From Mesostigma viride (lineage: Eukaryota; Streptophyta; Mesostigmatophyceae; Mesostigmatales; Mesostigmataceae): a stretch of DNA of 64,000 bases. Location: assembly GCA_009746045.1 (NCBI GenBank), contig RPFO01001464.1:1-64000 (forward strand), in the 5' to 3' direction. This document shows positions 2,439-55,686 of this stretch, piece by piece; positions within the stretch are counted from its first letter, which is position 1; the number at the start of each line of letters is the position of its first letter. The notes below the pieces were generated by a model. That model saw only the letters and a program-made list of their open reading frames with translations. It had not been told where the DNA came from and did not search any database. Both the position numbers and the translations under genes were made by a program.

Positions 2439-2514
2439 GACGGCTGCGGAGGGGAGGGGACAACCAACCACCCGTCGACAGCAGACATAACATAAGAGAG
2501 GAGAAGGCCTACGA

Positions 2515-4041: not shown

Positions 4042-4151
4042 CGCTACAGAAGTATCCAGAACAGGTTTAAAGAGATCTCCTACCGCCTTGCCGAAGAGAA
4101 GGGGAGGTCCTAGGGGGACTACGTTTTCATAAGACTTTCCTGACCTAGTCG

Positions 4152-8372: not shown

Positions 8373-8465
8373 CTTTAATTACGTAAAGGAATAGGAATCA
8401 AAAGAAGAAAGCAACAAAAGAAAAAGGAAAAACCTTGAAGGTCTGCAGCAGGAACAAAATTAAAA

Positions 8466-10703: not shown

Positions 10704-10990
10704 CTTAATTAATTAAACACGTGCTCCCGTTGGGGAGTCACGGAGCACCGAAGTGCTTGTAATCCCTGTGTGTGCACTACAGGAGAAAGGGCAGAGACCC
10801 CCAGTCTCCTTCATGCCAAAGGCATGCCACAACTGCATTCGGGCGCGCTAGCTAAACAGACACGCTAACGATCCGGCAAACTGTGGGTGCAATAAGACCC
10901 ATGTAAGCGTAGCATAACAAGTATAGCGTGGGCAAGTAATCTGAACATAGCCAGGGCGTAGCATGGCTGTACTAGGACTAGGCTAAGGCT
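10700..10990 (-). repeat. Hairpin-plus-(TTAA)n dispersed repeat, copy 1
   Basis: A TTAATTAATTAA tract is followed by a GTGCTCC...GGAGCAC hairpin around CCGTTGGGG, then AATCCCTGTGTGTGCA, AAAGGGCAGAGACCCCC and CATGCCAAAGGCATG. It matches 40,556-40,900 in the same orientation, 39,690-39,838 inverted and 37,115-37,290 more loosely. Because the simple tract abuts a conserved hairpin, I assign it as the 3' tail of a minus-strand element (LINE- or SINE-like); this assignment is inference. Confidence 0.6.
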
Positions 10991-13931: not shown

Positions 13932-14449
13932 GGCCAGAGTGAGATCGTACGTTATACGCGTTATACGGTCACGGTGGAGTATAATGTATAATACGGTATA
14001 ATACGGTATAATACGGTATTATACGTTTTCGTACGGACACACTCAGAATACTCTGATTTTACACATTTTAAGACACCCACCATCAATCCACATGTTTTTA
14101 ACACTGTTTTGGACATAATCCAAGGTTGCCCTACCCTCGGCTATACTCTATACGGTGGATATTGTGGACACGATCGATGTATTGCATGTAATACTGAGAA
14201 TGTAAACGTGCGCATGCATAATTGTGTGTATGTGTATATATGTGGCTTTATATTGGTTATGTTTACTTGGGTGCCTTCACTTTGATGCAAGTAATTATAT
14301 ATTTTAATATATATATGTGGCTGTGCATGCACGCAAATACTACAGTAGTATACAATTAATGCATGTAGTATGTTTGCATGGTGCGATGCTATGTGAATAT
14401 ACTGAGCTGCATGTGACTACAGGTGTGTGACTCGTGGTGTGCATTAATT

Positions 14450-16597: not shown

Positions 16598-17380
16598 TTA
16601 AGAGCGCAAACAGACTGGGCGGTGACATGCGGCAAATCAACGTACTACGGCCGGCATTATTTCCTACCCAGGCGCGCAAGAAAAGCCAGCCAGCCATGGA
16701 TGGATTAACCGCGGATCGCGCAGGCCTGAACGAAATCATTTTAGAAATGACAGGAAATGGCCGCAGATCGAAGATGCTTAGGTTATTTTCATGGTGTCCG
16801 TTACTAAACGGCTCTTGCTGCATCAAAATAACCCACGAATGTCGAGTTCTACCGTCGCAGGCACACATGCTAGATTATTCATCGCGGCCAAATTGACGTT
16901 GGATGAGACCCCCGTGCAAATCTGTACCACCAAAGGCAGCGAATTTGCAAATAGTGCAGATCTTGCTATGAAACATCATAATAGAACATCACTTTTAACC
17001 ATCGGCTTAATTTTTTCGCCTGTCGCCCGCCGGATTAGCCATATTTTAACGGAACGCACGTCGCCACCTCCGCACGGTGCGCGCACTGTGCACCACAATG
17101 TCAAAATAAGATCGCGTCGAATTGTGAAAGTTCAGACGGGTCAGTACTTATAGTAGAGATACGAAATCTGTGGCTTCAAATCGTTGCCCTGTCGGTCTGG
17201 CATCCTAGCCGCGCAAAACGTAAAAAAAACGCGGAAAACACGGCATTATACGGTATTATACGGTATTATACGTCATTATGCGCTAAAACGTATTACGTAT
17301 GAAAAATCATACGCTAAAAGCCAGCGTATTACGTATTATACCGTATTATACCGTATTATACGGCGTATGATCTCACACTG

Positions 17381-17581: not shown

Positions 17582-17602
17582 GGGCCAACCCCCCTCTCAC
17601 AG

Positions 17603-18459
17603 GTGTGTTTAACCCTCATAAAAAGGAATCCAAAATCAATATTGCTGGCTTGCCTGAGGGTCACACTGTTGAACAAGCTAAGCAATTTGTTTTGCTTGGA
17701 GTATGGGATGGAAGGTCTTAACCTTAGACATCAGTTTAAGGCTCTCAGGGCCTCCTCCACATTCCATCAATCATCTCCTGCAATCAGAGCATTGATTCAA
17801 ACCTATCAGGAACGTACCCTGACACCTGAAGCAGCCATTGAACAGTGGCCTACCTTTATCACTGATCTGAAACAGCTAGTGCTTACCAATAACCACATGG
17901 AAGCAGTAGAACGTTTCAACTGGCTTGCTGCATATAAGGTGAACAAGAATAACCTCTCTGGGGATGCAAAAACATACAGGGTAATGATTGAGAAAGACCT
18001 TGAGCTTCTCAAGCTCCAACCAAGGTATCTCATCCACACCTGGCTAACAAAAGCTAATTTGCAACCTTCTGTCCTGGCTACCCTGCTTACAGGCCTCAAG
18101 TCCCTCTGGGACAACTTCAGAGCTGCCATGCTCTATATCGAGGAGGCAGTGGACCCCCTGGGTACTGGCAACCCAGGCCCAGGACCCCAAGGTCCAGGGT
18201 GTCCAAGGCCACAAACGCAAGGGGCAGGCCAGCCAGGGGGGGCACCCAAGACCCACAAGTCCTCCCACCAAGGGGGCAGTGGCTCTCAGGGGCGTGGCAA
18301 CACGTGGCACCGTGTGCCCCTGCATGGCAACCCCAACAACAACAACAACAACAATAACAACAACAGGTCCCAGCAGGGCAACAATAACAACAGGTCCCAA
18401 CAGGGCCAAAACAACAACAACAACAGGTCCCAGCAGGGCCAGAACCGGTCCCAGCAGGG

Positions 18460-18490
<31 letters not shown>

Positions 18491-21400
18491 CAGCCTGGCA
18501 ACCCTGGGGGGTCCATAAGGTGCCTGAGGTGCTTCCAACGAGGGCACGCACGGCACAACTGCCCCAACAACGACTCCCTGGCCAACGGGGTGGATCTCTG
18601 CCCGGGCTGCTGGCACGCACGTCATCCCCTGGGGCCTCCAGGCAGCCGTTGCAACAGGCCTCGCTACCCAAATCAATGTGAGTTCACTCACCTTATGTAC
18701 TCTGAGGATGATGATCTCATTACCATTGGGGATGGCAACCAGGGCATAATTGATTTTGAGGCAGCAACCTTACTGTCCTCCCAACACCCTGTTCTGGAAC
18801 CTTACATAAAAGCACTAACCCCTACTGTTGACAACTCCATAGATATCAAGGAGCTTGCTCATCAGCTGCACCTAGCCATGGGTCATGAAACAGTGGCTGA
18901 GGAACTGGCCAGACGGCTGGGGGGTAGTAGCATGGGAAAACAACTCAGGAATGCAGTAAAACTGGCTAGACAACACTGTCAAGAATGTCAGTTCAATAGC
19001 CCCAAACCTCAAAAATGGCATACTGCAACTCCTTCCACCAATAGGGGCATGATAGTGGGGGATGTGATGCACATCAACAAAGATGTCCAACCCTACCTGA
19101 TCCTAAAAGACTCATGGTCCAGGTTCACAGTAATGGAACCCCTACCTGGCATGTCTGCAGGGCAGCTACGTGTTGCACTCATGATTGCTTTACCCAGATT
19201 CTACCCAGTTGACAGAATTTTGCTTGATCAACAATTTTCTTGTCTGACTGACCTGGAAGGGTGTGAAGCAATAGAGATTGCTGGGCTGGAAGATCATGAG
19301 GGTCAGGGGGTCATTGAAAGAACCATCAGATCTGTCAAAACCCTACTAGCCAAAAATCCTTCCAAGGATGCTACTTCAGGGGTCTATTGTGACAGGGCAC
19401 TCTGGTGTCATGAAATGTGCACAACCCTAAACATGAGACCTGTCTTGCATGCCACGTGGGGTGAAGTAATCCCAGCAGGCCTGCAGGCAGGTGTATATCC
19501 CCCAGAGGTGATAGCACTGTACAACACTGCACGTGCACAAACCTCAGCAAAACTGGCAGAAAAAGATAAAACCCATTCCAGGCCAGTATTCCAAAAAGGT
19601 GATCAAGTTCTCTATTACAAGGAAAACAGCTTTGGTAAGGTTGGAACTTGGCTAGGTCCAGTTACCATCCGTGGATTTACCAAAAACAGCAAGACCGTGG
19701 AGGTCAAGCACAATATCAATGGGAAGCGTCACAGGGTGAGCTGTCATAGAATTAAGAAGTATTATTCTCCCATGGCAGACGTGCCTGGGGAAGAGTCTTT
19801 AAGCATGGACTCACTACTTCTATCTGGCAACTCCAGCATGCCCAGCAGTAGCTCTGAGCCACCAATTACTGCTGTTGACAGCACCACAGCACCCTCTGTG
19901 AACCCTTCCACCCTCAGTGAAGCCAGGCCCACTTCACAACCTGGGGATTGCTTAACCAGGCACGAGGTAGCTGGGTTGGAAGCATTAGCTCAGCCCCAAG
20001 GCACCAAATTGTCTGCCAACCCTCCCGCTCTGAGGTCAAGATTGGCAGTCGCCTTGCAAGCATTACACAGGTCACATAAGCAACAAGCTGCTGTGGCCGC
20101 AGGGTTGGCAAAAGTCTCAGCTGTGTGCACTAGTCAGGACCCCTGGACCCTGGCAATAGACACTCAGGCACAGGTCAGTGTGATCAGTGCACAAGCCATC
20201 CCTGGTCTTGAGATTGCACCTTCATTTTGGGCACGGGTGCAGGATTTCTCAGGCCAAAGCTCACTGGATGTAGTGGGACAAGTGATGCTCCCTATACTTG
20301 GTATTCAGACACCCTTCCAGGTGGTGGAGGGGTACTCTGGTAACACCTTGTTGGGGGAACCTTTTGTATCCTATCCTGGGGTGCTTATCTCAGCTAATGA
20401 GCTCAGTGTCACAGGGGTGGGTGCAGTTCCTCTGGACCACTTTAAAATCCCTCTCTCCAGTATTGTCCCTGGTATGGATGCTGTCATCAAGGCAGTCAAC
20501 ACTCAGTATGCACCAGGGGAGATCCCTGATCTGGACAAGTTAGTGCACAGCCAGTTCCTCCATCCCTCAGCCTTTGGGCTGGGTAAGTGGGACATAGCCA
20601 TGCACTCACCCCACCAAATCTCCCACGTCATACAAGAATGCAAAACACAAAAAGGGTTTACCAAGTGGCTGATGGCCATTGTCCACCAAGCCAGGCAGGA
20701 ATGGGTCCTGCCCAACCCCAAAAACCCTCAATACAAACCGCCTGTCACCCCTTCATGGGACGTGCCAGAGGGAGCCAAAAAGCTCAGATTAAAATTTGTT
20801 CTCAAACAAAAACCACAAAAAGTGGGCTCCCCAATCTTCCATGCCAGACCATGTGTCACAGAATTAAAGGGGACCTCCACACTGCCAAAAGGGGAAACAT
20901 ACACACCTGGGCTGCAACAAACCTCACTCAGGATCATGCTCTCCCTATTCCTCCACAACCTCAATGCAGGCCAAGACTATGTCTGCAAAGCCACTGATAT
21001 TAAAAGGGCCTTCCTCAGGGGGGACCCAGAAAAGGCTGAATCTGTGTGGAAAGGGAAGGTGTACGTGGTAGACACCCCAGCTGTGTGGAAACCTTACATT
21101 GATGAGCCCCACCTTATCATCAACATTGGGGTGGAAGGGCTTGTCAGTGCCCCAAAAATTTTCAGAGACTCAGCAGAGGAAGTATTCAAAAAGCTCAAGG
21201 CCACGTATGATGACCTGGACCCATGCTTTTTTGTTGTACCCACCCCCTCTGGACTGCTGTTCTTTGTGTGGCATGGAGATGACCAACTCATTTGTGGGCC
21301 TAGAGCTGAGGTGGAAACCTTTATTCAGCAGGTCCAGGAATCATATGAGATTGGCAAACAGGTGGAATTGAGCACAACCCCCATCCAGTTCTGTGGCATC

Positions 21401-21673
21401 ATGTTGCAGCTGCATAGGCAGCCAGATCAGTGGGTCTGCTCTCTCTCCCCTCCTGCAGAATATATCCAAGATTGTCTAGATCTGCTGCAGGACAACTACC
21501 TCCCCTTACATATGTGTGCCACTGTTCAGGGCAAACTGGGGTGGTGGTCAGCCATCTGTGGGGCTCCCTTAGCTGTCATCAGCAGGGTCACCCATGATGT
21601 TCTAGTCAAGATAAATGCAGTCACATCAGGAAGTTGGTCAATGACTGTCCCCCCCTCATCCTCCATGGCCTGA
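17603..21673 (+). CDS. Gag-Pol: capsid, zinc knuckle, integrase, protease-like, reverse transcriptase (copia-type)
   Basis: Residues from 17603: capsid-like helices 40-190 (from about 17,715; earlier residues are out of frame); Asn/Gln repeats 235-300; CCHC knuckle C307-C320 (CLRCFQRGHARHNC). Integrase: H423, H428, C459, C462, then D487 (VGDVMHI), D542 (RILLDQQ), E572 (GQGVIERT), giving 29 residues between the last two. A retropepsin-like domain lies at about 845-930: D853 in LAIDTQAQVSVIS, VVGQVMLPI, and TLLGEPFV at 915-921. Reverse transcriptase follows: SWDVPEGAKKLRLKFVL, D1132 (KATDIKRAFLRG) and HGDD (1224-1227) in place of YVDD. Copia elements normally place protease before integrase; here it follows it, and no other protease is visible. 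The frame ends shortly before RNase H. The start shown is not an ATG. Confidence 0.88.
18328..18491 (+). repeat. AAC/CAG-rich simple repeat coding Asn and Gln in copia Gag
   Basis: Runs of AAC interrupted by AGGTCCCAGCAGGGC units encode poly-Asn with RSQQG spacers, just before the zinc knuckle. Confidence 0.9.
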
Positions 21674-25505: not shown

Positions 25506-27599
25506 CCTATTTTGTCCCTTCGTCCCCGTTGGCGGCTGCGCCTGGCGCTGCCAACCAGGCATGACGTGAGGTCCGCGGGGACGGGCTTCTCGAACCGTCT
25601 AGAACACATTAAAGACCAGTACGGCTAGAGGCCTCTCCTGAAAAATATCCAAATGTCCGTAGGTACCATCATAGCGCATGTGCAGTGCCACTTGGCTGTC
25701 CCGTAACTCCCGTTCAGGCGCTAGGTCCGCCTACCGGGCGGCTTAGTGCCTGTGGCGTGGTGGAATGCTCCGAGTGGGAAGCTCCTATTCGGGCCAGGAT
25801 GAAGAAAACTCTTGTGCGGGGGCGAGTGCGGGGGTCCGGGCCAATACCGCACTAAAATCCGACGCGCCCAGACAAGCCGCGCCGGGCCGGCACACGAATT
25901 AGCGCGGGAAACAGGGCCGATGGCGTGCATGCTGCCCGGCATACGGGACTTACGCACAATGGCACTTCACTGTGACTACCTAGCACATTGAGGAATTATT
26001 TCTCTGAGAAAAGGAATTACCGGGTGCAGTGTTAGGGAACGCGAAGTCAAGCTAGCCCGCCCTTTATTAGTATGGCCACGGAAACGTAGTGCAGACTTGA
26101 GTGCCGGGTGTGTTCTAATATTTAGGCCTTTAGCTAGTGTTGCTATGGTCTCGTCCTAATACCGCTATTACTCCTTGCATGGGTCGCGCCGGTCTTACAA
26201 AAGGCATTTGGATGTTTGCCCAAGGTATAATTGGTCGTAAGGTCCGAAGGTAAATTGAGACGACGAACCTTTTACGTCCCTGGGATTCATACCTGTAAGC
26301 TTAAAGAGTATTGTCAAGCCTGGTCTTTACTAGTCACAATAAAAGCAGGCTAAGCTTTTTTCCCCTCCTGAAACCCGTTGGGCGTGGTCGAAGTAATGAC
26401 GGAAGACATTATGGATGTACGCTTACCTGAGAACGGGCGTTTTCTCGTCTGAAAGCGCTGGGTCATACCAGCCCCACTTTCGCCCTCCCCTCCTGATCGA
26501 CCATCCTGCCTTATGCCTCCCCCCCACCCCCACCCACCCACCCACACAACCCGCGCCGACCCTGCTTCCATCTCTCGTCTTCTATGCTTACCATGCCTTG
26601 CCTGCTCATACCTCGCTGTAAATTTCCAAGAAAGCATCTTATGAAATTGTCGGGAAAGGCAACAGAACGCTGCAACAATGCGTGCCTTTCCTATATGGCT
26701 TTCTGCATATCAACCTGGTTGTATATCTCGTGAGTGAAAGTGAAGGATTTCATATATAGCATAATGTGTCGCATGTGATAATGGTAGTGATGTGTCATTT
26801 GTTGTAATGCTTTGTGCGTACGTGTGTTAGGGTAATACTTTTAGTGGATTGAAATAGTGTACATTGCTACTACATCTCGCGATTGGCTTTTGGGACATGC
26901 GGCCCGTGATGCTAGGATGGCAGTATATACAAAAATGTAGACCATTATACAACGAGATGAACACCATTTATGTGCCTTCTATAGTATGTGCATGCAACTT
27001 TGTTGCCACATGTCACGCCTAGAAATGGTGGTCCGTGGTCCATGGTGAGGTAATTGCTAGGCTGAGCCTTTAATTCAGGCCTAATTGGTTACAAGTTCGA
27101 CATGCCGGCCGTAGCCATGTGCAGGATTGACCCGGCCGAGTTGTGTGTGTCAATGACCCCCACGCCTGTTTGGGACCGGTCAGGTAGCTTCGCTTGATAT
27201 TGCTAGCCATTTCGGGGCAATTGTTATACCGTAGTTGTTGTTAAAGAATTGGTGCATTCAGGGTGGGCTCACACTCATGGTCGCACTCATGGTCGCTAAA
27301 TGATCGCTATGGGTTTACATTGTGCTCAGACTATTCTACACTCATCTAAGACTATTGTACACCTGTCATCTCACCCTCAAGTGTATTTGTTGCACATGCT
27401 TCATGTGTGGCCATCATGTAGGCCCCTTTATTCCCAAGTCCCACTGAGGACTTATGCCCGCGTGACGCAATCTAAGTGAAATAAATAATTGAAAACCAAT
27501 TAGTACCCTTTGTAAAGCCTGTTAATGAATGTGCGGTGATCGCCCCCAACCATAGCAGCCATGGGATGAAACTAGGTGAATTTAGTGAATGCGTCACTC
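25506..27599. other. No gene seen; one dispersed repeat block
   Basis: About 25,735-25,860 matches 34,440-34,560 in inverted orientation (GAAGCTCCTATTCGGGCCAG, GAAAACTCTTGTGCGGGG). The rest has no recognisable coding sequence, only short ORFs; a CCCCCACCCCCACCCACCC tract is at 26,520-26,540. Confidence 0.5.
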
Positions 27600-34439: not shown

Positions 34440-34560
34440 GAAACTGCAAGTGCGGTAATGCGCCGGACCTCCGCACTCGTCCCCGCACAAGAGTTTTCTT
34501 CATCCTGGCCCGAATAGGAGCTTCCCTCCGAGTGGGCGGCCCGTCCAACAGAATTAACTC
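34440..34560 (-). repeat. Dispersed repeat block, second copy
   Basis: Inverted match to about 25,735-25,860, including CAAGAGTTTTCTTCATCCTG and CCCGAATAGGAGCTTCC. Boundaries approximate; function unknown. Confidence 0.7.
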
Positions 34561-34726: not shown

Positions 34727-35739
34727 CTGGCTGTCCGCGACACTCCCGGAGCTAGTGTATACAGGGGGGGGGGGTAGCCCCCCCTCCACCCCCCCACCCC
34801 CAAAACTGGGGGGGCGGGGGGTAAGGGGTCGGACCCCCCCCCTCCCCCCCCAAGAAAATGGGGGGGGGGGGTTAGGGGTTTTGGATGCAGACCCCCCCCC
34901 CCCCCTCCCTGAAATATAAATATTTTCCGGGTAACTGAAATGGGTATTTTTTATTAACCAATAGGAATATCGGTAGGTTAAGAGGTACCACGTATCGACC
35001 AGCTGGTTACCCACTGAGGGTAGTGTGATAGGTGAAAGGTTTAGCCGGAAAGGAGCATTATGTGACCAGGGGAGCCAAGTGACGCGCGTAAGGTCACCGT
35101 GAGGAATGCAAGTAAACACCCTGTTGCGTCCCAGGTTCAAATATTACTCCTTTCCCCTCCCCTAAACCCTTCTTCCCTTCATTTGCAGCAACTCAATACG
35201 ACTCAGTCTGGACAGTCTCTCTTTGTGCCCCTACGTGGCATTTTCGCTTAGTATTCCTTACTTCTCAGAGGCCGCTCCCCCCCCCCCGCGCCACTTCAGT
35301 CCCCTGCGTTTCGCCACCGGAACTACCCGCGCCCCACCGGAACTACCCGCGCCCAAGCAGAGAGTTGTTTTTTAATACACTTAAAGAGACTCAGGTCCAC
35401 TGACTCAGGTCCACTGGCTTCCCTGGTCTAATAACGCGCCCTATTAGACTTTCACCTGTCACCTCCACACGTGTGTGTGCCCACCTTTAATTAGGATTCG
35501 CTGATACTCATTCACCTCTCACCTCTTTGGTCCATAATTGGCTAATAAAAATATACCCATTTCCCCGAAAATACACTTAAGGATATATAAATTTTTTGGG
35601 GGCCGACCCCCCCCCCCCCCCCCCCCCCAAAACTGGGGGGGGGGGGTCGGGGGTCAAGACCCCCCCCACCCCCCCACCCCAGAAAATGCCCCCCCGGGGG
35701 GTGGTATACACTAGCTCCGGGAGTGTCGCGGACAGCCAG
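34727..35739. mobile_element. Non-autonomous DNA transposon with 36-bp TIRs and G/C-run ends
   Basis: Perfect 36-bp inverted repeats (34727-34762 and 35704-35739) begin CTGGCTGTCCGCGACACTCC. The flanks are TTAG on both sides (34723-34726, 35740-35743), a candidate 4-bp target duplication. Immediately inside each TIR are long alternating runs of G and C (34,763-34,905 and 35,607-35,700) able to form quadruplex or foldback structure. The interior has no convincing gene. Superfamily unknown. Confidence 0.85.
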
Positions 35740-35743
35740 TTAG

Positions 35744-36301
35744 CTGTTATCCACACGGTTATTGCACTATTGCATCAGGCTGCATGCATAAATCGGTTGG
35801 GTTGGTGGTGTCAAGCGCCAACACCAGCATGCGGCTCCGTCCAAGCACGTTCTCCGTGAAAACCATAACTCGGCCATAGCGCGAAGGAGGTCGCTTGCTG
35901 CATCCCTGCATTGACCTTTGAGCCCAAGCTATCCATCTTTCGCGGGTACGTATCGTCCAGCGTGGGCATTGCCATTTCTTTGTTGTTGCTGGTGCCTAAA
36001 TTTTGTAGGTAATGTGCCTTGGCTGTCATTGACGCTAAGTACAGGACATTTTCGGCAGGCAATGCATCGAGCTTTGGGGGGCTAACTAACAATATTAATT
36101 GTTGTTTGTATCAGACCGCGTACGGCAAGCAGTTTGTTTATCCGCGGCTCGGGGAGAACTTATCAGTTGGCATGCTCATCCTCGGTCATCATTACGCATT
36201 GCTTAAATATACTTTGTTCGCGAAAACATCAATCCGTTAACCAACGAATGACTTTTTCTAGCGCTTGCCATGATATCTACTTGGCCGCAGCTAACAAGAC
36301 A
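35744..36301. other. Upstream region of the LURP-one-related gene
   Basis: No gene seen. The reading frame of the downstream gene is open from 36134, with an alternative in-frame ATG at 36248; no TATA box is obvious. Confidence 0.4.
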
Positions 36302-36874
36302 ATGTCGGGACCAATCATCTCCTCTGCATGGGTGGCCACGGAGCCCCTCCAGCTGGAAATCAAGGAGAAAATCTTCTCTTGGTCAGGAGATACCTTTGAT
36401 GTTAAAGATCAGCACGGCCGGGCGGTCGCAAAGATCAAAGGCAAGGCTCTCAGCCTGCGTGACAACAAGCAGTTCCTGGACGTTAACGGTAACGCAGTCC
36501 TGAAGATGCAGTCGAAGCTTTTGACAATGCACGCCACTCAGGAATTCAACGACATGAATGGCAAGCTCCTGTTCACCGTCAAGCAAAAGAACATCATCCA
36601 GTTCAAGAACAATGTGGAGATCTTCCTGAATGATGGAGACAAGGATGCTGATTTCTCGATCAAGGGTGACTTCTTTGGCAAGGAATACAGCATTGTGAAT
36701 GCCAAGACCAATCAGGAGATCGCACAGATCAAGCGGTCTATCTTTAATGCCGTCAACATCTTGACAGGACAGGACATGTACTACCTGGTCGTGCACCCTG
36801 GCACTGACATCCTGTTTGCCCTGGGCATCGCGGTTGCAGTCGACGAAATGTTCCACGACAAGGACGATCGTTAA
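36302..36874 (+). CDS. LURP-one-related (LOR) protein, intact, intronless
   Basis: 190 residues from ATG 36302 (MSGPIISSAWVATEPLQ), the usual length of LOR proteins, which have a tubby C-terminal-like beta-barrel fold. Visible family features: repeated short beta strands with central D-G-N-x-L type turns (DVNGNAVLKM, DMNGKLLFTV), the middle IKGDFFGKEYSIV, and a hydrophobic C-terminal helix after YYLVVHPGTDILFALGIAVAVDE. The ORF is open upstream to 36134, with an alternative ATG at 36248; I prefer 36302 because family similarity begins there. G/C-ending codons dominate. Plant family members include the defence-associated LURP1, but the biochemical role of most is unknown. It is the only complete, uninterrupted host-type gene in the window. 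Confidence 0.9.
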   Translation: MSGPIISSAWVATEPLQLEIKEKIFSWSGDTFDVKDQHGRAVAKIKGKALSLRDNKQFLDVNGNAVLKMQSKLLTMHATQEFNDMNGKLLFTVKQKNIIQFKNNVEIFLNDGDKDADFSIKGDFFGKEYSIVNAKTNQEIAQIKRSIFNAVNILTGQDMYYLVVHPGTDILFALGIAVAVDEMFHDKDDR

Positions 36875-37570
36875 CCACCAATTAGCAATACCCAGTAGAG
36901 TTGCTTGTCCCCCTTGACAGGGACAGCCAGTGTCTGGCAGAGCACCATCTGGCAGGCCACGTAGGCCCCAGGCGTTGCAGCTCATGCCTGACTCGCATGC
37001 CGCCAATGTTGTGCAAATTTCATACCATATATGTGGCTGCAGTTTACAGGCCACCGTTGTCATGAAGGTTCCGCATGACTGCAGTTACAGGCTTTCATAG
37101 GGTCGCGCGCTTCCATTAGTTAATTAATTAAACATGCGCTCCCGATGGGCAGTCACGGAGCACAATAATAAAGAGTTCGTACTTTTCATCCCTGTATGTT
37201 GCACACTGGGAAGGGGGCATAGACACCCATCTTTCCTTATGCCCGGAGGCAAGCCATAGTGCTGCAATCGAAACTAGCATCGAGGAGAGTCTGGCCTAAT
37301 AGGTGAGAAAGGGCTGAAGCGTGGAAAAAGTCATGAAAGTCGCGAGTACGCGGAGGCGGGGGCTGAGATTAATTTTAGAGGTAGGTACGTTGAAATTAAA
37401 AAAGAAGGATGCCTGTAGCAAGATTTTTTCAAGGAGTGTCTATTGGCCAGCGTAAACATGTAGTCTCCTTGATATAGTATTGTACCTACGACAAGATGTC
37501 AGGAGTGACGGAAAGTACTGAAATCGCGCGGAAAAGTCATAAAATTCACAAGTCCCAGTTCTTCGCTAGG
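36875..37570. repeat. Intergenic, with a diverged hairpin-plus-TTAA repeat
   Basis: At 37,115-37,290 TTAATTAATTAA is followed by GCGCTCCCGATGGGCAGTCA and blocks related to 10,700-10,830 and 40,556-40,712, more diverged than the others. No gene elsewhere. Confidence 0.5.
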
Positions 37571-39510: not shown

Positions 39511-39689
39511 TACCCAGCAGTAGACGGCCCTGCGAGATTGGCCGTCTCAAGACTCGACAGTGACTGGAGTGCCGAGTGCTGCGTCGTCCGAGTCGCCACT
39601 TACTATGCTAGAGCCGTATGCTGACGCAGAAGCTGGAGCAGCAACTCGACGACGATATGGCACCCACAGAACATGCCGGATCGTCTAAC

Positions 39690-39838
39690 GTGTCCGATTG
39701 CAGCTGTGCCATGCCTTTGGCATGAAGGAGAAAGGGGGTCTCTGCCCTTTCTTCCTGTTGTGCACACACAGGGATTAAAAGCACCTCGGTGCTCTGTGAC
39801 TTCCCAACGGGAGCACGAGTTCGATTAATTGATTAACT
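39690..39838 (+). repeat. Hairpin-plus-(TTAA)n repeat, inverted copy
   Basis: Reverse complement of 40,556-40,712: CATGCCTTTGGCATGAAGGA, CAGGGATTAAAAGCACC, CCCAACGGGAGCACGAG, then the ATTAA tail, which here points right. Confidence 0.75.
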
Positions 39839-40555: not shown

Positions 40556-40945
40556 GCTCTTAAACCCTAAATTAATTATTCGATTAAACTCGTGCTCCCG
40601 TTGGGGAGTCACGGAGCACCGAAGTGCTTTGAATCCCTGTATGTGCACAGCAGGAAGAAAGGGCAGAGACCCCCTTTCTCCTTCATGCCAGAGGCATGGC
40701 ACAGCTGCAATCGGATGTCCACGATAGACGATCCGGCAAGTTCTGTGGGTGCAATAAGACCCATGTGATCAAATCATAACAAGGAGCGTGGGCAAGTATG
40801 CTGATCATAGACAGGACGTAGCATGGCTGTACAAGGACTAAGCTAAGGCTATGGCTGTTTGACAGTGTACTGTGTGTTTGCGGTGCATGCACGTGACTCC
40901 TGTATGGTGGCACAGCTAGGCAAACATTCTAGGCGTGGCTGCCGT
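40556..40945 (-). repeat. Hairpin-plus-(TTAA)n repeat, copy 4
   Basis: Closest match to 10,700-10,990: ATTAATTATTCGATTAA tail, hairpin, AAAGGGCAGAGACCCCC, CATGCCAGAGGCATGGCA, GCAATAAGACCCATGTGA and CTAAGGCTATGGCTG. A separate block GGCACAGCTAGGCAAACATT at 40,910 recurs at 42,972. Confidence 0.7.
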
Positions 40946-41108: not shown

Positions 41109-41510
41109 ATGCTTCCTAATTACCTATGTATATCGGAGGAGACCCCAGACTCTCTTCTCGACGAGCTGAAGAAACAGCTCTTGGCGTGCATGCAGCTGCC
41201 AGGTGCGATACTGCAGGGCGCCTACCGCCTGCCCCATCCACGGGCCAAGGCTGGGCCCCCTCCAGTGGTCCTCACCTTCAGCGACATCACAGCCCGAGTT
41301 CGGTTCCTCTCTCGCCGCAAGAAGCTGGTGAACACCTCCTGGTCGCTTGACGACGACCTGACGCCAGCCCAGCAGCAGCAACGCCGCGATCAGTGGCCCG
41401 ACTACATCCGCCACAAGACCAACCCCGAGAAGCCCCAAGTGTACTGGCGGGGCGGGGACCTCTATGTCAACAAGAAACTGTGGAAGCCCCCCCGGGCCTC
41501 CCCGGGATAG
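41109..41510 (+). pseudogene. LINE (L1-like) ORF1, C-terminal fragment
   Basis: The protein resembles the RRM/C-terminal part of L1-type ORF1: LLDELKKQLLACMQL, GAYRLPHPRAKAGPPPVVLT, RVRFLSRRKKL, SLDDDLTPAQQQQRRDQWP and VYWRGGDLYVNKKLWKPP, stop at 41508-41510. It is clearly homologous to 43,054-43,462 on the other strand, including the conserved C-terminal end. The upstream part of ORF1 and any endonuclease/RT ORF are missing. ORF1 proteins bind element RNA. Confidence 0.65.
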
Positions 41511-42572: not shown

Positions 42573-43053
42573 GCGCGGGTGCCTAAGTACGTGCTGGGTG
42601 GGTGGATGTTCAAGTGCCCAGGTTGGTAGGTGTTTGCGTGCCTAGGTGCACACGTGGTTATTATATTATAAGGTGGGTTAGTACGTGTGCGGCTGGCTGG
42701 CTGCGTGGGTCACTTGGTCGGTGGACGTGTGGGTGGCTGGGTGCACGGGCGCGAGACTGCCGTGGATGTGAGCAGTTGTGTGGGTGGGTGGCCAGGTGGC
42801 TCACATGGGTGGTATACTGCATGGGTGGCTCGGTGCCCACCAAGCACAAGAGATGGAGACATGGGATATGCCAATACCTTATCATGCACGTGAGCATGCG
42901 TGGTTGCAAGCTAGGTGCAACATGTGCCACAGTGCCAGCGCCGCTGGGTGTCTCTTCGATCATCGATATGTTGGCACAGCTAGGCAAACATTCTAGGCAT
43001 GGCTGCCTTAGCGGCAGTGACTCCAATGGTTACAAGCTAGGGCTATTGCTGTT
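42573..43053. other. GT-rich intergenic sequence
   Basis: Loosely repetitive GTGGGTGGCTGGGTG-type sequence, and a copy of GGCACAGCTAGGCAAACATT at 42,972 shared with 40,910. No gene. Confidence 0.45.
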
Positions 43054-43492
43054 CTAGCCCGCTGGGGGCGTCCACATCTTGTGGTTGATCATCAGGTCCC
43101 CGCGGGCCGCCCCTCCAGTACACCTTGGGCTTCTGGGGGTCCTGCTTATGGCGGAGGTATTGAACCGGCCACAGGTCGCGTCGCTGCTGTTGCTGAGCGG
43201 GGGTCAGGTCGTCATCCAGCGTCCAGGTGAGGTCGTGCAACCTCTTGCGACGAGAGAGGAACCGCTGCTTATCCTCAGGGGAGGGGAAGGTGAGCAGGAC
43301 TGGTGGGGGAGCCGCCTTGTCCCGTGCGTGGGGAAGGCGGTGGCACCCACGCAGTTCTACCTCACCTACCAGGCCCATGAGGGTAAGAAGCTGGTTCTTG
43401 AGCTCGTCAGCAAGAGAGGTTGACGTCTCACCTGGCTTCTGGGGGAAGCGACGTAGCACCACTCGGCACTCGCGCCCGCACTCGGCACTCGC
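43054..43492 (-). pseudogene. L1-like ORF1, C-terminal half, cut off by the 11-kb transposon
   Basis: Minus-strand protein CRVVLRRFPQKPGE, LADELKNQLLTLMGL, CHRLPHARDKAAPPPVLLT, RFLSRRKRLHDLTW, DDDLTPAQQQQRRDLWP, KPKVYWRGG; after a one-base change it ends GDLMINHKMWTPPAG at stop 43054-43056, matching the end of the copy at 41,109. It abuts the left TIR of the transposon at 43,493; the N-terminal half resumes at 54,709 on the far side. No endonuclease or reverse transcriptase follows. Confidence 0.7.
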
Positions 43493-43522
43493 GGGGTGGT
43501 TTTACCGGATTAGGATACATTT

Positions 43523-44690
43523 GCACAGCTTCAAATGTATCCTAAATGCACCATTGGCAAACATGGTTTCTGGACATGGTCGATATCATTCATATGTTTG
43601 GCAAGCATGATATGATCATGCTTGCCAAAGATGTTGTCTCTTTTCATATTTCACACATATATTATCGGCCTCGGCGTGCCATGCTTCCACGTTTGTTGTC
43701 TCTTTTCATATATTGTAAATATGATCAATAAAATTCCAAACATGACCATGTTGGAGACTTCAAGTGGAGCATCATGATTACTGTTTTCACTATTACGTAA
43801 CCCATGGTTCATGTTAACATGGCATAATGAGCAATCCTATTGACCCCATGACTAATGGTGAAGTTAATAAAGTTACATCGTGGCACGTCACTATAGCATC
43901 AAGTTGCATCATTGTGCATAAAGTAGTTTAGCACTGAGTTGGCATGCCAACACCAGGTACACTAAATAAATTAAAACCAGAATTGATAAACAACCCAGTA
44001 TCCAAATACAGTATCCATATATATGCAGGTCGTACTACAGGTACAGCCACGGCTGCCACGCGGCTTCTGCAGCGATCACGCTCTTTCTCCTAGACAATTG
44101 CTCTACTGGTCCCTACAGGTCGGTCGACTTGGACCATGATGCGTCAAGAACCGTTAATTGACCGACTTAAACAAGATGTTTGTCTACATGCAGCTGTCTG
44201 CACCTAACTAACGCGAAACCGCGTGCTACCAAATATAGCGGGAAATGCATGAGTAACACATGTCAACGCACAACCGGTGGAAATCACGCGATACCAACCG
44301 CGGCAACAGTGGTGTGAACATAGCGGGCACTGCCATGCAAAAAAGCACCAGCAGCGGCATCAGTAGCAAATTGTAGTAGCGGAACAATAGCCACTACATC
44401 AATGCAACAACACATCAGCCCAGCAACACAGCAGCAGCATGACCGTAGCACAGCAGCAGCACAACTGTAGCTCAGCAGCACGGCCGTAATGCAGCAGTGC
44501 ATCAACACAGCAGCACGGCAGCAGCACGACAGCAATACATCAGCGGCACGGCAGCAATGCAGCAACACATCAGCACAACAGCACAACAGCAGCACGGCAG
44601 CAATGCAGCAACAGTAGCATGGCAGCACAGCAGCAGCAGCAGCAGCAGCAGCACATGAGCAGCTCAATGACAACAACCGCTGCTCGCGCT
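43523..44690. other. Left non-coding arm of the transposon, CAG-rich at the right
   Basis: 43,523-44,330 is AT-richer subterminal sequence with an inverted pair GCAAGCATGATATGATCATG near 43,600; the transposase transcript should end here. 44,390-44,690 is (CAG/GCA)-rich simple sequence (AGCAGCACGGCAGCAATGC). Long Cys/Ala ORFs across it are repeat artefacts. Confidence 0.6.
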
Positions 44691-47600
44691 TCAGCAGTCG
44701 TCGTCGTCGTCGTCGTCGTCATCGTCATCGGCAAGGATGAGCGCTCGCTTCCGACGCCGGGAGGCGCCTGCGTTGTTGTTCTCCGCCACATCGTCGCTGG
44801 GTGGAACCATCTCGCGCAATCGAGCCTCGGCCAGGGTGATATCCGGCGCTTGCAACGCAGGGACGACCACACCGGGGCACCCGCAGATCTGTGCCTCCAG
44901 CTCGTGGAGAGGCACACAAGAAACCGCGTCCTCCTCCCAACGGGCACCCCAGTACATGGCTACCATGTCGTTTTGCGTGTCGACAACAGCGACACGACCA
45001 TGGTACCTGCCGTCCCGGCTTTCGGTGCGACCGTCCGCGGATGTCACACGCTCCGACGCCCAATGACACACGACTTGCCCTACGAGGTTGCGGCTGCCAC
45101 TCTTGACCTGCAGCCTTATGCCTTCCCAGCATGCCTTCGCCATGCCGACGATGCCCTTCGAGCATTCAGCATCTTGCCACTTCACGACCGGGTGTTCCGC
45201 GTCATAGGGCACCTCCTTCAGCGCCTTTAGGCACTCCTTGGTGAGCTTTTTGTTCGCACCCAAGGAGACTGCATGGGGCGGCTGACCTCGCTTGCCCACC
45301 ACTTGTGTCAAGACGAGGTCTGACGCGGTGATGATCACCGTGTGCGCCGCAGTGGTTGGCGGATGGGGCCATTGCGCAATGTCTGGGTTCCACGGGTGCC
45401 ACGTGTCACGCAAATGCTTAGCGCGGTATACAAAGAGCTCAATAGAAGGTTGGCCGCCATCCTCCTTCGCAACCACCTCCTTGATGATGCCAAAGAGGAC
45501 TGGAGTCCACGTGAGCTTCGAGTTGCAGAGAATACCAGCTGAAGGGTGCCAGTATAGAACAGCGGAGCCTTTCTCAACGCCTTGCATGCGCTTCAAGTAA
45601 GCGACCTTGGCTGTCATGGCCCTGTCTTCTGCCGCCCATTCCTGCTGTGTGTGGCCATCATGAAGAACTCGGTCTACCAGCGGGGTGACGCGCACCGCCT
45701 CTGCGTCGACCAACGCCATGAAGTGCTCTTCTTGCGTCGGTGGTGGTTCAGGCGCTGCATCGTGCTCACGCAGGGCGGAGATGTCCGCGCGAGATGGCCA
45801 CGGCAAAGGGCGCCACTCCTCAGGCACCTCCTCAGGGGCATGTGGGACTTTTGCGAAAAAGGCCTCGTTTGGCTTGATGGTGTCGGGCGGAAAGTACCAC
45901 TGCCAGATGCCATGGGGCAACTTCTCGACCCTTGTTTTGATCGACTCCAGCTCCTTCCCCAGAAACTCCATGTTCAATGGTGCGAAGGCTGGGGTGTCCT
46001 GCAACATCGGAATGCGGTCTGGATCCACAAGTCGGACGCCAAACAGCGGCCGCCCCTCCGCATCAAACTTGTAAGGCTGTGTCATCGCCTTCCCGCACCG
46101 TGGCGCGCCTTCCTGTCGAGTCCCCGCGGGCTGCCACGGCGTCTTTTGGGACTCCGTGGTCCGGTAGGACAACCAGGTCTCTGCGTTGCCCTGTACCTGG
46201 AAGAAGACGGCGTGGTGCACCTTCATTGAGCGACCGCGTTTTTCAGGCACCGGCTGTGCCGCTCCGCCGCCCGCCGGCTGCGCCTCCGGCCCGCCGCGCG
46301 CCGGCTGCCCCGCCCCGCCGCCCGTCGACTGCCCCGCCCCGCCGCCCGTCGACAGCCCCGCCCCGCCGCCCACGCGCGCCGGCAGCGCCGCTGGCCCCCC
46401 GCACGCCGACCGCCCTGCCCCGCCGCCCGTCGACTGCCCCGCCCCGCCGCCCGTCGACAGCCCCGCCCCGCCGCATGCCAGCTGCGCCGGCCCGCCGCCC
46501 ACGCGCGCCGGCAGCGCCGCTGGCCCCCCGCACGCCGACGGCCCTGCCCCGCCGCCCGTCGACTGCCCCGCCCCGCCGCCCGTTGACAGCCCCGCCCCGC
46601 CGCCCACGCGCGCCGGCAGCGCCGCTGGCCCCCCGCACGCCGACCGCCCTGCCCCGCCGCCCGTCGACTGCCCCGCCCCGCCGCCCGTCGACAGCCCCGC
46701 CCCGGCGCCCACGCGCGCCGGCAGCGCCGCTGGCCCCCGCGCGCCGACTGCCCCGCCACGCCGCCCGTCGACAGCCCCGCCCCGCCGCCCACGCGCGCCG
46801 GCAGCGCCGCTGGCCCCCCGCGCGCCGACGGCCCCGCCCCGCCGCCCGTCGACAGCCCCGCCCCGCCGCCCACGCGCGCCGGCAGCACCGCTGGCCCCCC
46901 GCACGCCGACTGCCCCGCCCCGCCGCCCGTCGACAGCCCCGCCCCGCCGCCCACGCGCGCCGGCAGCACCGCTGGCCCCCCGCCCGTCGACTGCCCCGCC
47001 CCGCCGCCCGTCGACAGCCCCGCCCCGCCGCCCACGCGCGCCGGCAGCGCCGCTGGCCCCCCGCGCGCCGACGGCCCTGCCCCGCCGCCCGTCGACTGCC
47101 CCGCCCCGCCGCCCGTCGACAGCCCCGCCCCGCCGCCCACGCGCGCCGGCAGCGCCGCTGGCCCCCCGCACGCCGACCGCCCTGCCCCGCCGCCCGTCGA
47201 CTGCCCCGCCCCGCCGCCCGTCGACAGCCCCGCCCCGCCGCCCACGCGCGCCGGCAGCGCCGCTGGCCCCCCGCACGCCGACCGCCCCGCCACGCCGCCC
47301 GTCGACTGCCCCGCCCCGCCGCCCGTCGACAGCCCCGCCCCGCCGCCCACGCGCGCCGGCAGCGCCGCTGGCCCCCCGCGCGCTGACTGCCCCGCCACGC
47401 CGCCCGTCGACAGCCCCGCCCCGCCGCCCACGCGCGCCGGCAGCACCGCTGGCCCCCCGCACGCCGACTGCCCCGCCCCGCCGCCCGTCGACAGCCCCGC
47501 CCCGCCGCCCACGCGCGCCGGCAGCACCGCTGGCCCCCCGCACGCCGACGGCCCTGCCCCGCCGCCCGTCGACTGCCCCGCCCCGCCGCCCGTCGACAGC

Positions 47601-49861
47601 CCCGCCCCGCCGCCCACGCGCGCCGGCAGCACCGCTGGCCCCCCGCACGCCGACGGCCCTGCCCCGCCGCCCGTCGACTGCCCCGCCCCGCCGCCCGTCG
47701 ACAGCCCCGCCCCGCCGCCCACGCGCGCCGGCAGCGCCGCTGGCCCCCCGCGCGCCGACTGCCCCGCCCCGCCGCCCGCGCGCGCCGGCAGCACCGCTGG
47801 CCCGCCGCCCGTCGACGGCCCTGCCCCGCCGCCCGTCGACTGCCCCGCCCCGCCGCGCACCGGCAGCGCCGCCCCGCTGCCCGCTGACTGCCCCGCCCCG
47901 CCGCGTGCCGGCTGCGCCGCCGCTGCCGCCCCGCCGCGCACCGATGGCGCCGCCCCTCCGTGCGCCGGCTGCGCCTCGCTGCACGCAGGCTGCACGACAT
48001 CACCACGCACCCTGGTGACCTTGATAACCTGATCCTCCCTACCGGTCATCCAATCTACTGTGCTGCACCAACCGGCAAACGACTCGCGCTGCAACGGAGT
48101 GAGAAAGTTCCTGACATCGTAAGCGACCCCCAATACCTTGACCTCCGTGCCAGCGGGGACGGTCGAGTTGCAGTTCGCAGCTGCACCACTAGGCTGACGG
48201 AATGCCTCTTCTATGGCCGCCACCCAGCTCTCCAAAGTTGGGTACTTGTGCACGAAGCTAGGCCCCCCCGCCACAGCGTGTCTCATGTAGGCCACAAGCA
48301 CGCCGAATTTCTGATCTGGGTCGGCGTGCGTGTGGCCCACGAGCATGCGGTGCATTTCGACGACGTCGAAGAAGCCAACGTGTACGAGCCACCATGCAAA
48401 CAGTAAGACGGTGTGATTCCGGTTTTCACTCCCACCGTCCAGTTGCAGGCACAAACACCTGGGCATGTGCGGCAGCCCCGCCCTCCTCCATGGCTGGTCC
48501 CTCATCAACTGCGCCAGGATGTGCATCAGCATCGTGACGGTGACACTGCCGGAGAGGTTGTCGGTCATGAGGACCCATGCGAGAACGATGAACCACATCG
48601 CCTTGTACCCATGGACGGCCGCACAGAAGAGCGAGAACGGCATCATGCCACCTGCATAGCTGCCCCATGAGTCGGGCCCCCCCACCAGCTTCGGCCAGTA
48701 TGTCTTGGCGTGATCCAGCTTGTCGAGGTTGATCGACAAAATGGCCGTCAACATAGCGGCCACCATCGCGCAGGCAAGCTCGCGCCTCAACCAATAGTTC
48801 TGGCGGGTAAACCAGGCCAGAGCGACATGCTGCTTGATTTGGTTGTCGACGTACTGCCGTTGTGCCTCAGTTGAAGCACCGCGGCGCCGCATGCGCAGTT
48901 CCACGCAGTCCGCGCAGTGACCGGTGCTCTTGTTGTGCGGGCATACCACCACCTTCGGGCTCCTCTGCCCTGGGAAGTAGTCGCCTTTGCAGTAGGTGCG
49001 CCAGATGCGGTAGAATGCGTTGTAGCCTAGCACCTTGGCCCCTTCCCCCGCTTCTGCCACCACGTCTTCAACGTACATGGCGTGCATCTCCTTGATGGAC
49101 ATGACGTCCATGAAGACAACGCCAGCATGAGTCGGGTCATGGTCTGCGATCTGCTGCACCAACTCGTGCATCCACATTGCTGCGTGTTCGCCAACCTCCG
49201 AACGCCCCCGAGCATCACGCTCAGGTGGTGCGTGCTCCAGACCAACACCGAAAGTCGCTAGGTCGTTGGGATGCACGGTCAGGAAATACTCTTTCGCCGA
49301 CACGACCGACGCCACCAGATTGTTCCAAGTCGCCCGGGTAACGCCGGCCATCTTCCGGATGGCAGATGCACAACCGGTGACGGTGTACATGCACCCCGCA
49401 ATCACCACGTCCACGTGTAAAGGGCCGGTAATGATGTACTTCTTGTAACGGCCACCGTCGGCAGGGGATTCTACCTCGATGTTGCCCACGCCGGCCGACC
49501 GGATCACGTCGCAAAGGGAGGCCATGCGCTGCTGGTCCGTTTGGTTGTACAGGTACTCTCGAAAGGCAGTCCACGACCTGGTATCGGTAAGTAAGGTGCC
49601 CACCTTCTCGAGGCAATGCTCCCCACAAGTCGGACCGCACTTCCTGGCCTTGGCGATGTCCTTGTCAACGGACTTCAATTTGGAGGCGAGAAGCCGGGCG
49701 CCATCTTTCTTCCCACTGCGCTTCGCTCGAGAGGAAGACGTGCCGGGCCCCATTTCCGTGTGAAGCAGGTCGTCGTCAGAGCCGTCAGAATCTACGCCCC
49801 AACTAGCTTCAGAACTCGCATCCGAATCCACCAGGTCTGGCACATCCCATTCTTCATCCAT
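44691..49861 (-). CDS. DUF7869-like putative DDE transposase with in-frame minisatellite
   Basis: N-terminal half, frame of ATG 49861: acidic start; Cys cluster C75, C79, C83; ligands C307, H309, C316, C319; INLDKLDHAKTYWPK (D380, D383); QLDGGSENRNHTVLLFAWW (D475, N480); VGHTHADPDQKFGVL (H510, H512, D514, D516). The D-x2-D-x2-K, LD---ENRN and VGHTH-D-DQ-F series matches, from memory, the family Pfam calls DUF7869, plausibly an RNase H-fold transposase. Residues about 640-1230 are the minisatellite. The C-terminal 500 residues (VHHAVFFQVQGNAETW, TWTPVLFGIIKEVVAKEDG, DGRYHGRVAVVDTQNDMVAM, end poly-Asp) are unrecognised. The two ORFs (49861 to 46223 and 47984 to 44691) join if one base is added at the C5 run 46734-46738, where other units have C6: about 1,723 residues. 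It runs toward the left TIR. Confidence 0.8.
46270..47960 (-). repeat. GC-rich coding minisatellite, 105-bp unit and shorter variants
   Basis: Units contain CGCGCCGGCAGCGCCGCTGG, CGCACGCCGAC and one or two CCGCCGCCCGTCGAC boxes; the full unit is 105 bp, other units lack a box. All unit lengths keep the frame, so on the minus strand it encodes a repeat of the type PAALPARVGGGAGLSTGG plus GAGQSTGGGAG. Roughly 16-18 units. One unit (46,731-46,740) lacks one C and breaks the frame. Long ORFs on the other strand are shadows. Confidence 0.93.
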
Positions 49862-51551
49862 GTTAATAGGAAATCTACTGTATTACACCCGGTGGTGCTT
49901 GGACAGAAGCAAGAAACCCCGCCCACCGCTCAAATGTGGCGCCCAACAAAGCCCCAAACTGTTTTCTTCAATAAGTCTACTGTTCTACATCCGGTGGTGG
50001 ATGGACACAAGCAATAAAGGCCCCGCCCACACCTCAGATTTCTTTAGAAAATCTACTGATCTACATTCGATGGCGCCTTCACAGAAGCAGGAAACTCCGC
50101 CCACCGGTCAAATGTGACGCCCAACAAAGCCCCAACTGATTTCTTCAAGAAGTATACTGTTTTACAGCCGGTAGTGCTTGGGCAGAAGCACTATAAAAGA
50201 GACAACCAGCGCAGGCCAGAAATCGCAGGCCAGAAATCGCAACTATGTAAAGCCCGCCCACACATCGGATTTCTTTACGAAAAACCTGTTTTACATTCGA
50301 TGGGGTCTTGACAGATTCAAACAAATTATCGTTTCTACCTGCGTGCGACTGCTGCGGCTGAGTGCTGCAACTTGTCTTCACGTCTTCACGTCTTCACGTC
50401 TTCACGTCTTCACCGCGTCTTCACCTGTCTTCACCACGTCTTCACGGCTTCACGGCTTCACGTCTTCACGGCTTCACCTGAACACCTGAACTTCACCTGA
50501 ACTTGCCGTATCGTGTCTTCACGTCTTCACGTCTTCACGTCTTCACGTCTTCACGTCTTCACCGCGTCTTCACCTGTCTTCACCACGTCTTCACGGCTTC
50601 ACGGCTTCACGTCTTCACGGCTTCACCTGAACACCTGAACTTCACCTGAACTTGCCGTATCGTGTCTTCACGTCTTCACGTCTTCACGTCTTCACGTCTT
50701 CACGTCTTCACCGCGTCTTCACCTGTCTTCACCACGTCTTCACGGCTTCACGGCTTCACGTCTTCACGGCTTCACCTGAACACCTGAACTTCACCTGAAC
50801 TTGCCGTATCGTGTCTTCACGTCTTCACGTCTTCACGTCTTCACGTCTTCACGTCTTCACCGCGTCTTCACCTGTCTTCACCACGTCTTCACGGCTTCAC
50901 GGCTTCACGTCTTCACGGCTTCACCTGAACACCTGAACTTCACCTGAACTTGCCGTATCGTGTCTTCACGTCTTCACGTCTTCACGTCTTCACGTCTTCA
51001 CGTCTTCACCGCGTCTTCACCTGTCTTCACCACGTCTTCACGGCTTCACGGCTTCACGTCTTCACGGCTTCACCTGAACACCTGAACTTCACCTGAACTT
51101 GCCGTATCGTGTCTTCACGTCTTCACGTCTTCACGTCTTCACGTCTTCACGTCTTCACGTCTTCACCGTCTTCACCTGTCTTCACCACGGCTTCACGGCT
51201 TCACGTCTTCACGTCTTCACGGCTTCACCTGAACACCTGAACTTCACCTGAACTTGCCGTATCGTGTCTTCACGTCTTCACGTCTTCACGTCTTCACGTC
51301 TTCACGTCTTCACCACGTCTTCACCTGTCTTCACCACGTCTTCACGGCTTCACGGCTTCACGTCTTCACGGCTTCACCTGAACACCTGAACTTTGCGTAT
51401 CGTATCTTTGATACATTGCATCATTTGCATGCCTTGGAGCTGCACGTCTTCAAGCAGTGTCACCCAGTTCCCGCTTGATTCAAATGCACTTCGCGCTTGA
51501 ATTCGTGACTTCGCTCAAGGTGGAAGGTGATGGGCACTAGCCACGGGAACT
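49862..51551. promoter_or_regulatory. Bidirectional intergenic region made of two tandem arrays
   Basis: Separates the two divergent transposon genes, so it must hold both promoters. 49,865-50,310: four or five diverged units of roughly 70-105 bp (AATCTACTGT-TTACA-CCGGTGGTG, ACAGAAGCA, CCGCCCACC). 50,370-51,400: six or seven units of 149 bp (one of 155) built from CGTCTTCA octamers and ending ACTTGCCGTATCGTG. No TATA box is clear. Regularly spaced octamers suggest protein-binding sites, by inference. Confidence 0.6.
50370..51400. repeat. 149-bp tandem repeat of CGTCTTCA octamers
   Basis: The marker GCCGTATCGTG occurs at 50505, 50654, 50803, 50952, 51101 and 51256, giving periods of 149, 149, 149, 149 and 155. 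The first four units look identical, indicating recent amplification or homogenisation. Confidence 0.95.
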
Positions 51552-54317
<2,766 letters not shown>

Positions 54318-54678
54318 ATCAGTTCTTTGACACTGAGTTGGCACTAGACGCAACACCTTTGATGCACATGAGTGCAGGGCGCATGTGTGGAAACCATGCA
54401 ACCATGGCGATCCCTCAAAAAGTTTGGTTATGTAATAAGTGAGACAATTATTCCGGACGTATGATGGCCCAACGTCCTGTAAGGTTGAGTTGTCTTATTC
54501 AATTGGCATATGTTGTCTTATTGATGTTGTCTCATTGCCTTAATGGGTCAATTGTCTTAGTTTATATCATGTATATCTTGGGAAACTAATTGCTTCAATA
54601 AAATGCATGTTAGGCGCAATCAACCCCCTCAAACACATCTGAAAACTGCACAGTGCATCAAATGTATCCTAAACAAAA
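54318..54678. other. Right non-coding arm of the transposon
   Basis: 3' flank of the second gene with TGTTGTCTTATT/TGTTGTCTCATT motifs (54,510-54,540) and AATAAA at 54,597, a possible polyadenylation signal. No gene. Confidence 0.55.
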
Positions 54679-54708
54679 AAATGTATCCTAATCCGGTAAA
54701 ACCACCCC

Positions 54709-55686
54709 GGCGAGCGCGGTCGGTGACCTCCCGTTGCTGGGCCTGGCGGTGCATGGTCCTCCAGCTCCTGGAGCTTTGTGGCGATGGCGTCGGTGGTGGA
54801 GGCGGTCGCTGACCGCAGCAGGTCCGCGTAGGAGAGCGGCGGGAGGTCGCCAGCATCCTGCCGGGGTGGCTGGGATGCAATGGTGGCCGTCTGCTCCGCT
54901 ATCTTGGGAACCTGTGTGGCCAGGGCCTCGGTGTGGGCGGCCGGTGATGGCCTCAAGCTCAGTCTTCAGGAGCACGCCACACTTGCCCTCCACCTGGTTA
55001 AGGCGAGAGACAAGTGCAGCATGCGTTTCCGAAGCCTGCGCCGTGGTGTGTATAGCGCCGTTAAAACTGGGGTTGTAGCTTGTGGACGACCTTGGTTTCC
55101 ACGTTGGAGACCCGGACCTCGACCTTGTTGAGCGTGGTGTTCAGCGATGTCAGCTGCTCGGCCAGCGGCCAGGTCACGTGCTCCTCCAGCACTGCGCGGA
55201 TGTCATCCTTGCCGAGGGAAGAAGCCGATGGGGCTGCCGGCTGTGCGGGGGCTGGGGTGCGGAGCGTTCTGGTGATGTCGCCGAGGCGGATCTGGAATTG
55301 GCTGGTCAGGATAATCAGGCGTTGTTCTACTTCGTCCAAAGCATAGAGCCAGGACATGTCTCCATTGTAGTCGATAGCCGCCCCCACCTTGGGCACGAAG
55401 AGCTTCCGCTCCTGTTCGAGGAACTGGAGAACCTCGATGCATGGCAGCCTGCGGCGACAATTCTTGCCACCGGGTACGTGAAGGAGAATCGTCGGTCGCC
55501 GGGGAGGAACTCGCTCCATTTTCGATCGTGGCAGGGTTTCTTGGGCTCAGGCGAGGCGCTGGGCGATGGGGCTGCTGGCGGTGGGTTGGCAAGCCCAGTC
55601 GGCTGGGCAGGAACGATGGCGAGAGGGTTGGGCTGGGAGCCGGTAAGCTCCTTTTCCAAACCCCGTTTTGCTTTTGGGGTCGTCAT
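54709..55686 (-). pseudogene. L1-like ORF1, N-terminal half, several frame changes
   Basis: From an ATG at 55686: MTTPKAKRGLEKELTGSQ, a Pro-rich stretch and HDRKWSEFLPGDRRFSF; then in a second frame CIEVLQFLEQERKLFVPKVG, SWLYALDEVEQRLIILTSQF and a helix KDDIRAVLEEHVTWPLAEQL, LNTTLNKVEVRVSNVETK; then in further frames ASETHAALVSRLNQVEGK and PKIAEQTATIASQ, SYADLLRSATASTTDAIATK. This is the coiled-coil half of an ORF1; its C-terminal half continues at 43,492 on the far side of the 11-kb transposon. At least three one-base changes, one in an ACCCC run near 55,070. Confidence 0.6.

Follow-up and report, generated by a model that had tools for sequence, protein, structure and literature searches.

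A candidate 11.2-kb terminal-inverted-repeat DNA transposon carrying a DUF7869 gene in Mesostigma viride

Introduction

The Kyakuja-Dileera-Zisupton (KDZ) elements are eukaryotic DNA transposons, some of which carry additional genes, and in their description (PMC12730594) two characterised Kyakuja families have CA..TG termini, no terminal inverted repeats (TIRs) and 7-bp target site duplications (TSDs), while Zisupton-1_PGr (Dileera) has 8-bp TSDs. Zisupton and Kyakuja are also mentioned in Chlamydomonas (PMC8226300). PMC12730594 also describes the CMCT clade (CACTA/EnSpm, Mirage, Chapaev, Transib) as DNA transposons with DDE transposases that have C(2)C and H(3-4)H between the second D and the last E, and with CA..TG ends. 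The MuDR, hAT, P, Kolobok and Dada group, likewise DNA transposons with DDE transposases, has the signature C/DxxH between the second D and the last E (PMC10045372).

The Pfam family DUF7869 (PF25273) has a description that states no function. A search by family name found no paper on DUF7869, a result that is limited to the name and does not establish absence from print.

Here we describe a unit of approximately 11.2 kb in which TIRs enclose a DUF7869 gene together with a second gene. In contrast to the KDZ families above, its TIRs are of the GG..CC type and a clear TSD is lacking; its termini also differ from the CA..TG ends of the CMCT clade. When D475 and D514 or D516 of the DUF7869 protein are taken as the second and last acids, the intervening residues (476-516) contain none of C(2)C, H(3-4)H or C/DxxH, which sets the protein apart from both the CMCT clade and the MuDR/hAT/P/Kolobok/Dada group; no Pfam match to the latter was found either. 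We consider a TIR DNA transposon the best reading of the unit, with its DUF7869 protein acting as a DDD/E-type transposase, at a probability of roughly 60%.

Results and Discussion

The window

The sequence analyzed (the window) comprised 64,000 nt of Mesostigma viride contig RPFO01001464.1 (GCA_009746045.1), positions 1-64,000 of the forward strand. Judged by its gene content the host was taken to be eukaryotic, since the window carries gypsy-type polyprotein fragments (139-8378, with reverse transcriptase, RNase H and aspartyl protease domains in the frame at 4155-6932, minus strand), a long plus-strand ORF at 17585-21670 with a weak RVT_2 (copia-type) match below the cut-off (E = 0.00013), and a LURP-one-related (LOR) gene at 36089-36871 on the plus strand (E = 2.2e-31), which is probably a host gene. 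RNA families and tRNAs were sought throughout the window and none were found.

Terminal inverted repeats and end motifs

The left TIR (43492..43522, plus strand) and the right TIR (54679..54709, minus strand) were 100% complementary over 31 nt and were separated by 11,156 nt. The ungapped match ended outward at 43492/54709 and inward at 43522/54679, with termini GG..CC. Since the outermost C/G pair could belong to the target, lengths of 29-31 nt are all possible; the earlier note had described perfect inverted ends of 30 bp, and while their perfection was borne out, the measured length was 31 nt. Allowing a one-base gap extended the match outward of the tips by five further bases (CTCGC), which we took as chance or target sequence. 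A chance origin of the 31-nt pair itself is excluded, the odds estimated from base count being approximately 1e-11. The first 20 nt of the TIR, searched on both strands with up to three substitutions, matched nowhere else within the 64-kb window, and no second unit with the same ends was found there.

Each end also carried two copies of the motif TAGGATACATTT. At the left end one copy lies within the TIR (43511..43522, plus strand) and a second, inverted copy lies beside it (43533..43544, minus strand); at the right end one copy lies within the TIR (54679..54690, minus strand) and the second lies beside it in the same orientation (54660..54671, minus strand). No further exact copy was present in the 64 kb, and each of the four lies no more than 55 nt from an element end. 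The count was still four with one mismatch allowed and rose to 11, including the four end copies, with two mismatches. Repeated end motifs are typical transposase binding sites.

The 31-nt inverted pair alone is not proof of a transposon because the window contains further inverted pairs that are long and perfect (46, 40, 36 and 30 nt), of which the 46- and 40-nt pairs lie within longer opposed repeats. The pair could thus represent a short dispersed repeat present in two opposed copies, which by chance flank two ordinary neighbour genes, an explanation that would also suit the lack of a clear TSD. However, the ungapped match does not run past the 31 nt in either direction, the extra exact copies of TAGGATACATTT beside the TIRs occur at these two ends only, and the window holds no third copy of the end. 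It is the first two of these features that set this pair apart from the others, and we regard the dispersed-repeat explanation as distinctly unlikely.

Putative insertion site and flanking sequence

The longest exact TSD abutting the element was 2 bp, a palindromic CG/CG obtained with a 29-nt TIR. Longer candidates were imperfect, with 6 of 9 and 8 of 11 positions matching (p = 0.016 and 0.003, uncorrected, among 44 combinations), and the mismatches in these 9-11 bp candidates clustered in mid-sequence.

The left flank contains an ORF fragment (43046..43491, minus strand), which we presume to resemble the C-terminal part of LINE ORF1, and the right flank contains ORF fragments in three frames (54710..55546, minus strand) that appear coiled-coil-like by eye. 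A Pfam scan of three flank fragments, one from the left and two from the right, gave no match. From the order and strand of these minus-strand fragments, the flanks may be remnants of a single older gene, now broken, into which the element inserted, with the right flank as its upstream part. When the flanks were joined for the target site the frames gave no clean join, a result that is silent on TSD length because the gene of the flanks was spread over several frames to begin with. A relative of the left fragment, sharing 64% identity over 108 residues, lies at 41139-41456; because it ends before the insertion point, it does not represent an empty site. Separately, the 14-bp sequence CACTCGGCACTCGC is directly repeated next to the left TIR (43460-43473 and 43479-43492) and has no other exact plus-strand copy in the window.

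Two divergent genes

The two genes run divergently, with a minus-strand ORF from 49861 and a plus-strand ORF from 51552 (start codons chosen by hand), and between the gene starts lies a 149-bp tandem repeat of 6.8 copies with 97% matches (50374..51393). The non-repetitive parts of the genes are open for 620, 475 and 514 codons versus maxima of 434, 460 and 368 in sets of 300 Markov-random sequences each, a margin that is narrow for the partner gene. GC content differed across codon positions in the gene frames, as is usual in coding DNA. Domain scans covered chosen proteins of the element rather than every frame, and "two genes" here means two recognisable ones. With that reading, the divergent pair claimed beforehand was confirmed by both ORFs, whereas the minus-strand gene, as assembled, proved not to be one open frame.

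The minus-strand gene (44691..49861) encodes an N-terminal portion of 620 aa, a long Gly/Ala/Pro-rich tandem repeat and, in another frame, a C-terminal portion of approximately 500 aa; we infer that both frames belong to one gene. The frame shifts within the GC-rich tandem repeat (46250..47936, minus strand), and the residues past the repeat are read in the other frame. A run of C residues in this repeat has 6 C in 14 of the 16 copies, 5 C in one and 3 C in one. The 5-C copy (46729..46739, minus strand) is the likely site of the frame break, whether genuine or from assembly. Since the frame is broken as assembled, this copy of the element may be inactive, unless the break is an assembly error.

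In the partner gene, exon 1 (51552..53777, plus strand) runs for 742 codons, with a Cys cluster and polyQ/FPQ repeats, to a predicted GTGAGT donor at 53778. Splicing to an acceptor at 54197 (ATGCAG|G) would add an exon 2 of 39 codons plus stop in frame (54198..54317, plus strand). The Cys-rich stretch (residues 47-80, 51690..51791, plus strand) gave a weak PHD-finger match below the cut-off (E = 0.039), as did the first 475 residues scanned alone (E = 0.024), and the region had no match at E ≤ 10 among PDB sequences. A single-sequence AlphaFold model of the Cys region had a pLDDT of 40.1, too low to use. The Cys cluster and long polyQ agree with the Cys/Gln-rich partner described in the earlier note.

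The DUF7869 protein

Residues 437-589 of the minus-strand protein (48095..48553, minus strand) matched Pfam DUF7869 with 60.4 bits versus a curated cut-off of 26 (E = 2.3e-16; E = 9.2e-17 on rescanning the sub-region), which supports the DUF7869 membership proposed in the earlier note. At Pfam E ≤ 1 the only other match was T4SS_CagC, a chance match (0.051); NCBIfam returned chance matches only (E = 0.043 and 0.73), and the C-terminal part matched no family in the profile scans.

A family sequence not drawn from a database record also matched DUF7869 (E = 4.1e-32) and was 25% identical overall to the element protein. In the alignment D380, D383, D475, E479, D516 and Q517 were identical and D514 faced E; the motif VGHTHxxxDQ was common to both. 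Checking of the translation placed D380, D383, D475, D514 and D516 (48314..48724, minus strand) exactly where the earlier note had named them, and these residues define a candidate catalytic region. D514 and D516 lie 39 and 41 residues after D475, a spacing within the range of DDE enzymes that have no insertion domain. The conserved acids are consistent with a short-spaced DDD/E triad, a comparison that is thin in covering two sequences, one of them not from a database record.

The single-sequence AlphaFold model of the DUF7869 protein had a mean pLDDT of 36.6 and no strands, too low to speak for or against a fold, and searches of PDB sequences gave chance matches only (E = 0.51; E = 1.3 with a two-row profile). 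These results bear on a second explanation, under which the unit does move but owes its mobility to the enzyme of another element acting on its ends in trans, with the DUF7869 protein being cargo or an accessory. The model and the PDB searches give no catalytic fold, the DUF7869 gene frame is broken, and no family was matched by its C-terminal part or, above cut-off, by the partner, all of which would fit cargo. In contrast, the acids of the DUF7869 protein occur in DDE-like order and spacing, and among the element proteins scanned, which did not cover all frames, none had a known transposase domain. We find this explanation rather improbable, though it deserves some weight.

A third possibility is that the element belongs to a known superfamily (e.g. 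Kyakuja-Dileera-Zisupton or MuDR) but has diverged so far that the profiles missed it. Large size and extra genes do occur in such elements; TET-carrying KDZ families are described in PMC12730594. Against this, known transposase profiles had no match in the element proteins scanned, the N-terminal 620 residues matched nothing at Pfam E ≤ 1 beyond DUF7869 and the one chance match, and both the termini and residues 476-516 differ from those systems as set out above. A KDZ transposase profile, provided that Pfam includes one, gave no match at E ≤ 1 or at E ≤ 10, the latter in a scan whose filters drop weak matches. We judge this possibility unlikely; it overlaps with the preferred reading, as it leaves the transposase role with the DUF7869 protein.

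Relatives sought elsewhere

A protein search for relatives gave no hit at E ≤ 1 among 8000 candidates scored, and a search with residues 425-600 gave no match at E ≤ 10 among 628 candidates. Viral contigs scanned at the protein level likewise yielded nothing. Searching viral contigs with motif patterns returned 1, 12, 26, 1 and 1 stretches (41 in total). Forty of these were rejected because inspection of the translated frames by eye revealed no DUF7869-like context, and the remaining stretch (L001) was rejected as it had no minus-strand ORF of at least 120 aa at the match. Prokaryote genomes yielded at least 118 stretches and, among the matches listed, none of 118 was preceded within 60 residues by D-x(2-4)-[EQ]N-x-N.

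Proposed mechanism and significance

The transposon reading is supported by the TIRs, the two genes, the DUF7869 membership, the end-specific repeated motifs and the signs of interrupted older sequence. We counted against it the absence of a further copy in the window and of an exact TSD longer than 2 bp, the two-mismatch motif matches elsewhere, the pLDDT of 36.6, the chance PDB matches, the broken frame and the tentative nature of the likeness to LINE ORF1.

If the unit is mobile, the DUF7869 transposase would fold like RNase H, its metal-binding acids being D380 or D383, D475, and D514 or D516. The enzyme would bind the TAGGATACATTT motifs, two near each end, and pair both element ends, after which cleavage at the GGG/CCC tips would be followed by joining to target DNA. 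The partner, with its Cys cluster, middle region and polyQ tail, may serve as an accessory for end binding, chromatin or assembly.

More tentatively, and at somewhat below even odds, an undescribed superfamily of eukaryotic DNA transposons could be represented here, with DUF7869 as its transposase, short-spaced DD39-41D chemistry, paired TAGGATACATTT motifs at the ends and a partner with a Cys cluster and polyQ. Were this the case, many eukaryotic DUF7869 genes would be transposases or derived from transposases. The mobile-element function that the earlier note proposed for DUF7869 is plausible and has gained some support, although it is unproven. If it is right, a domain of unknown function would gain the role of a DNA-transposon enzyme, with defined ends and a testable partner.

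Other repeats in the window

Several further repeats were observed in the window. At 34727-35739 a perfect 36-nt TIR (CTGGCTGTCC...) with arms approximately 1 kb apart is flanked on both sides by an exact TTAG, and this is probably a small non-autonomous TIR element. A perfect 46-nt inverted pair lies within a 78-nt, 94% match at 25776-25853 and 34449-34526, 8.7 kb apart, and may represent either opposed repeat copies or the ends of a larger element. A dispersed repeat occurs at 39656-39836, 40570-40756, 10707-10851 and 37116-37270, the last three being 89%, 88% and 71% identical to the first and in opposite orientation to it. Finally, a perfect 30-nt inverted pair at 13986-14015 and 17332-17361, 3.3 kb apart, is built of GTATAATACG units.
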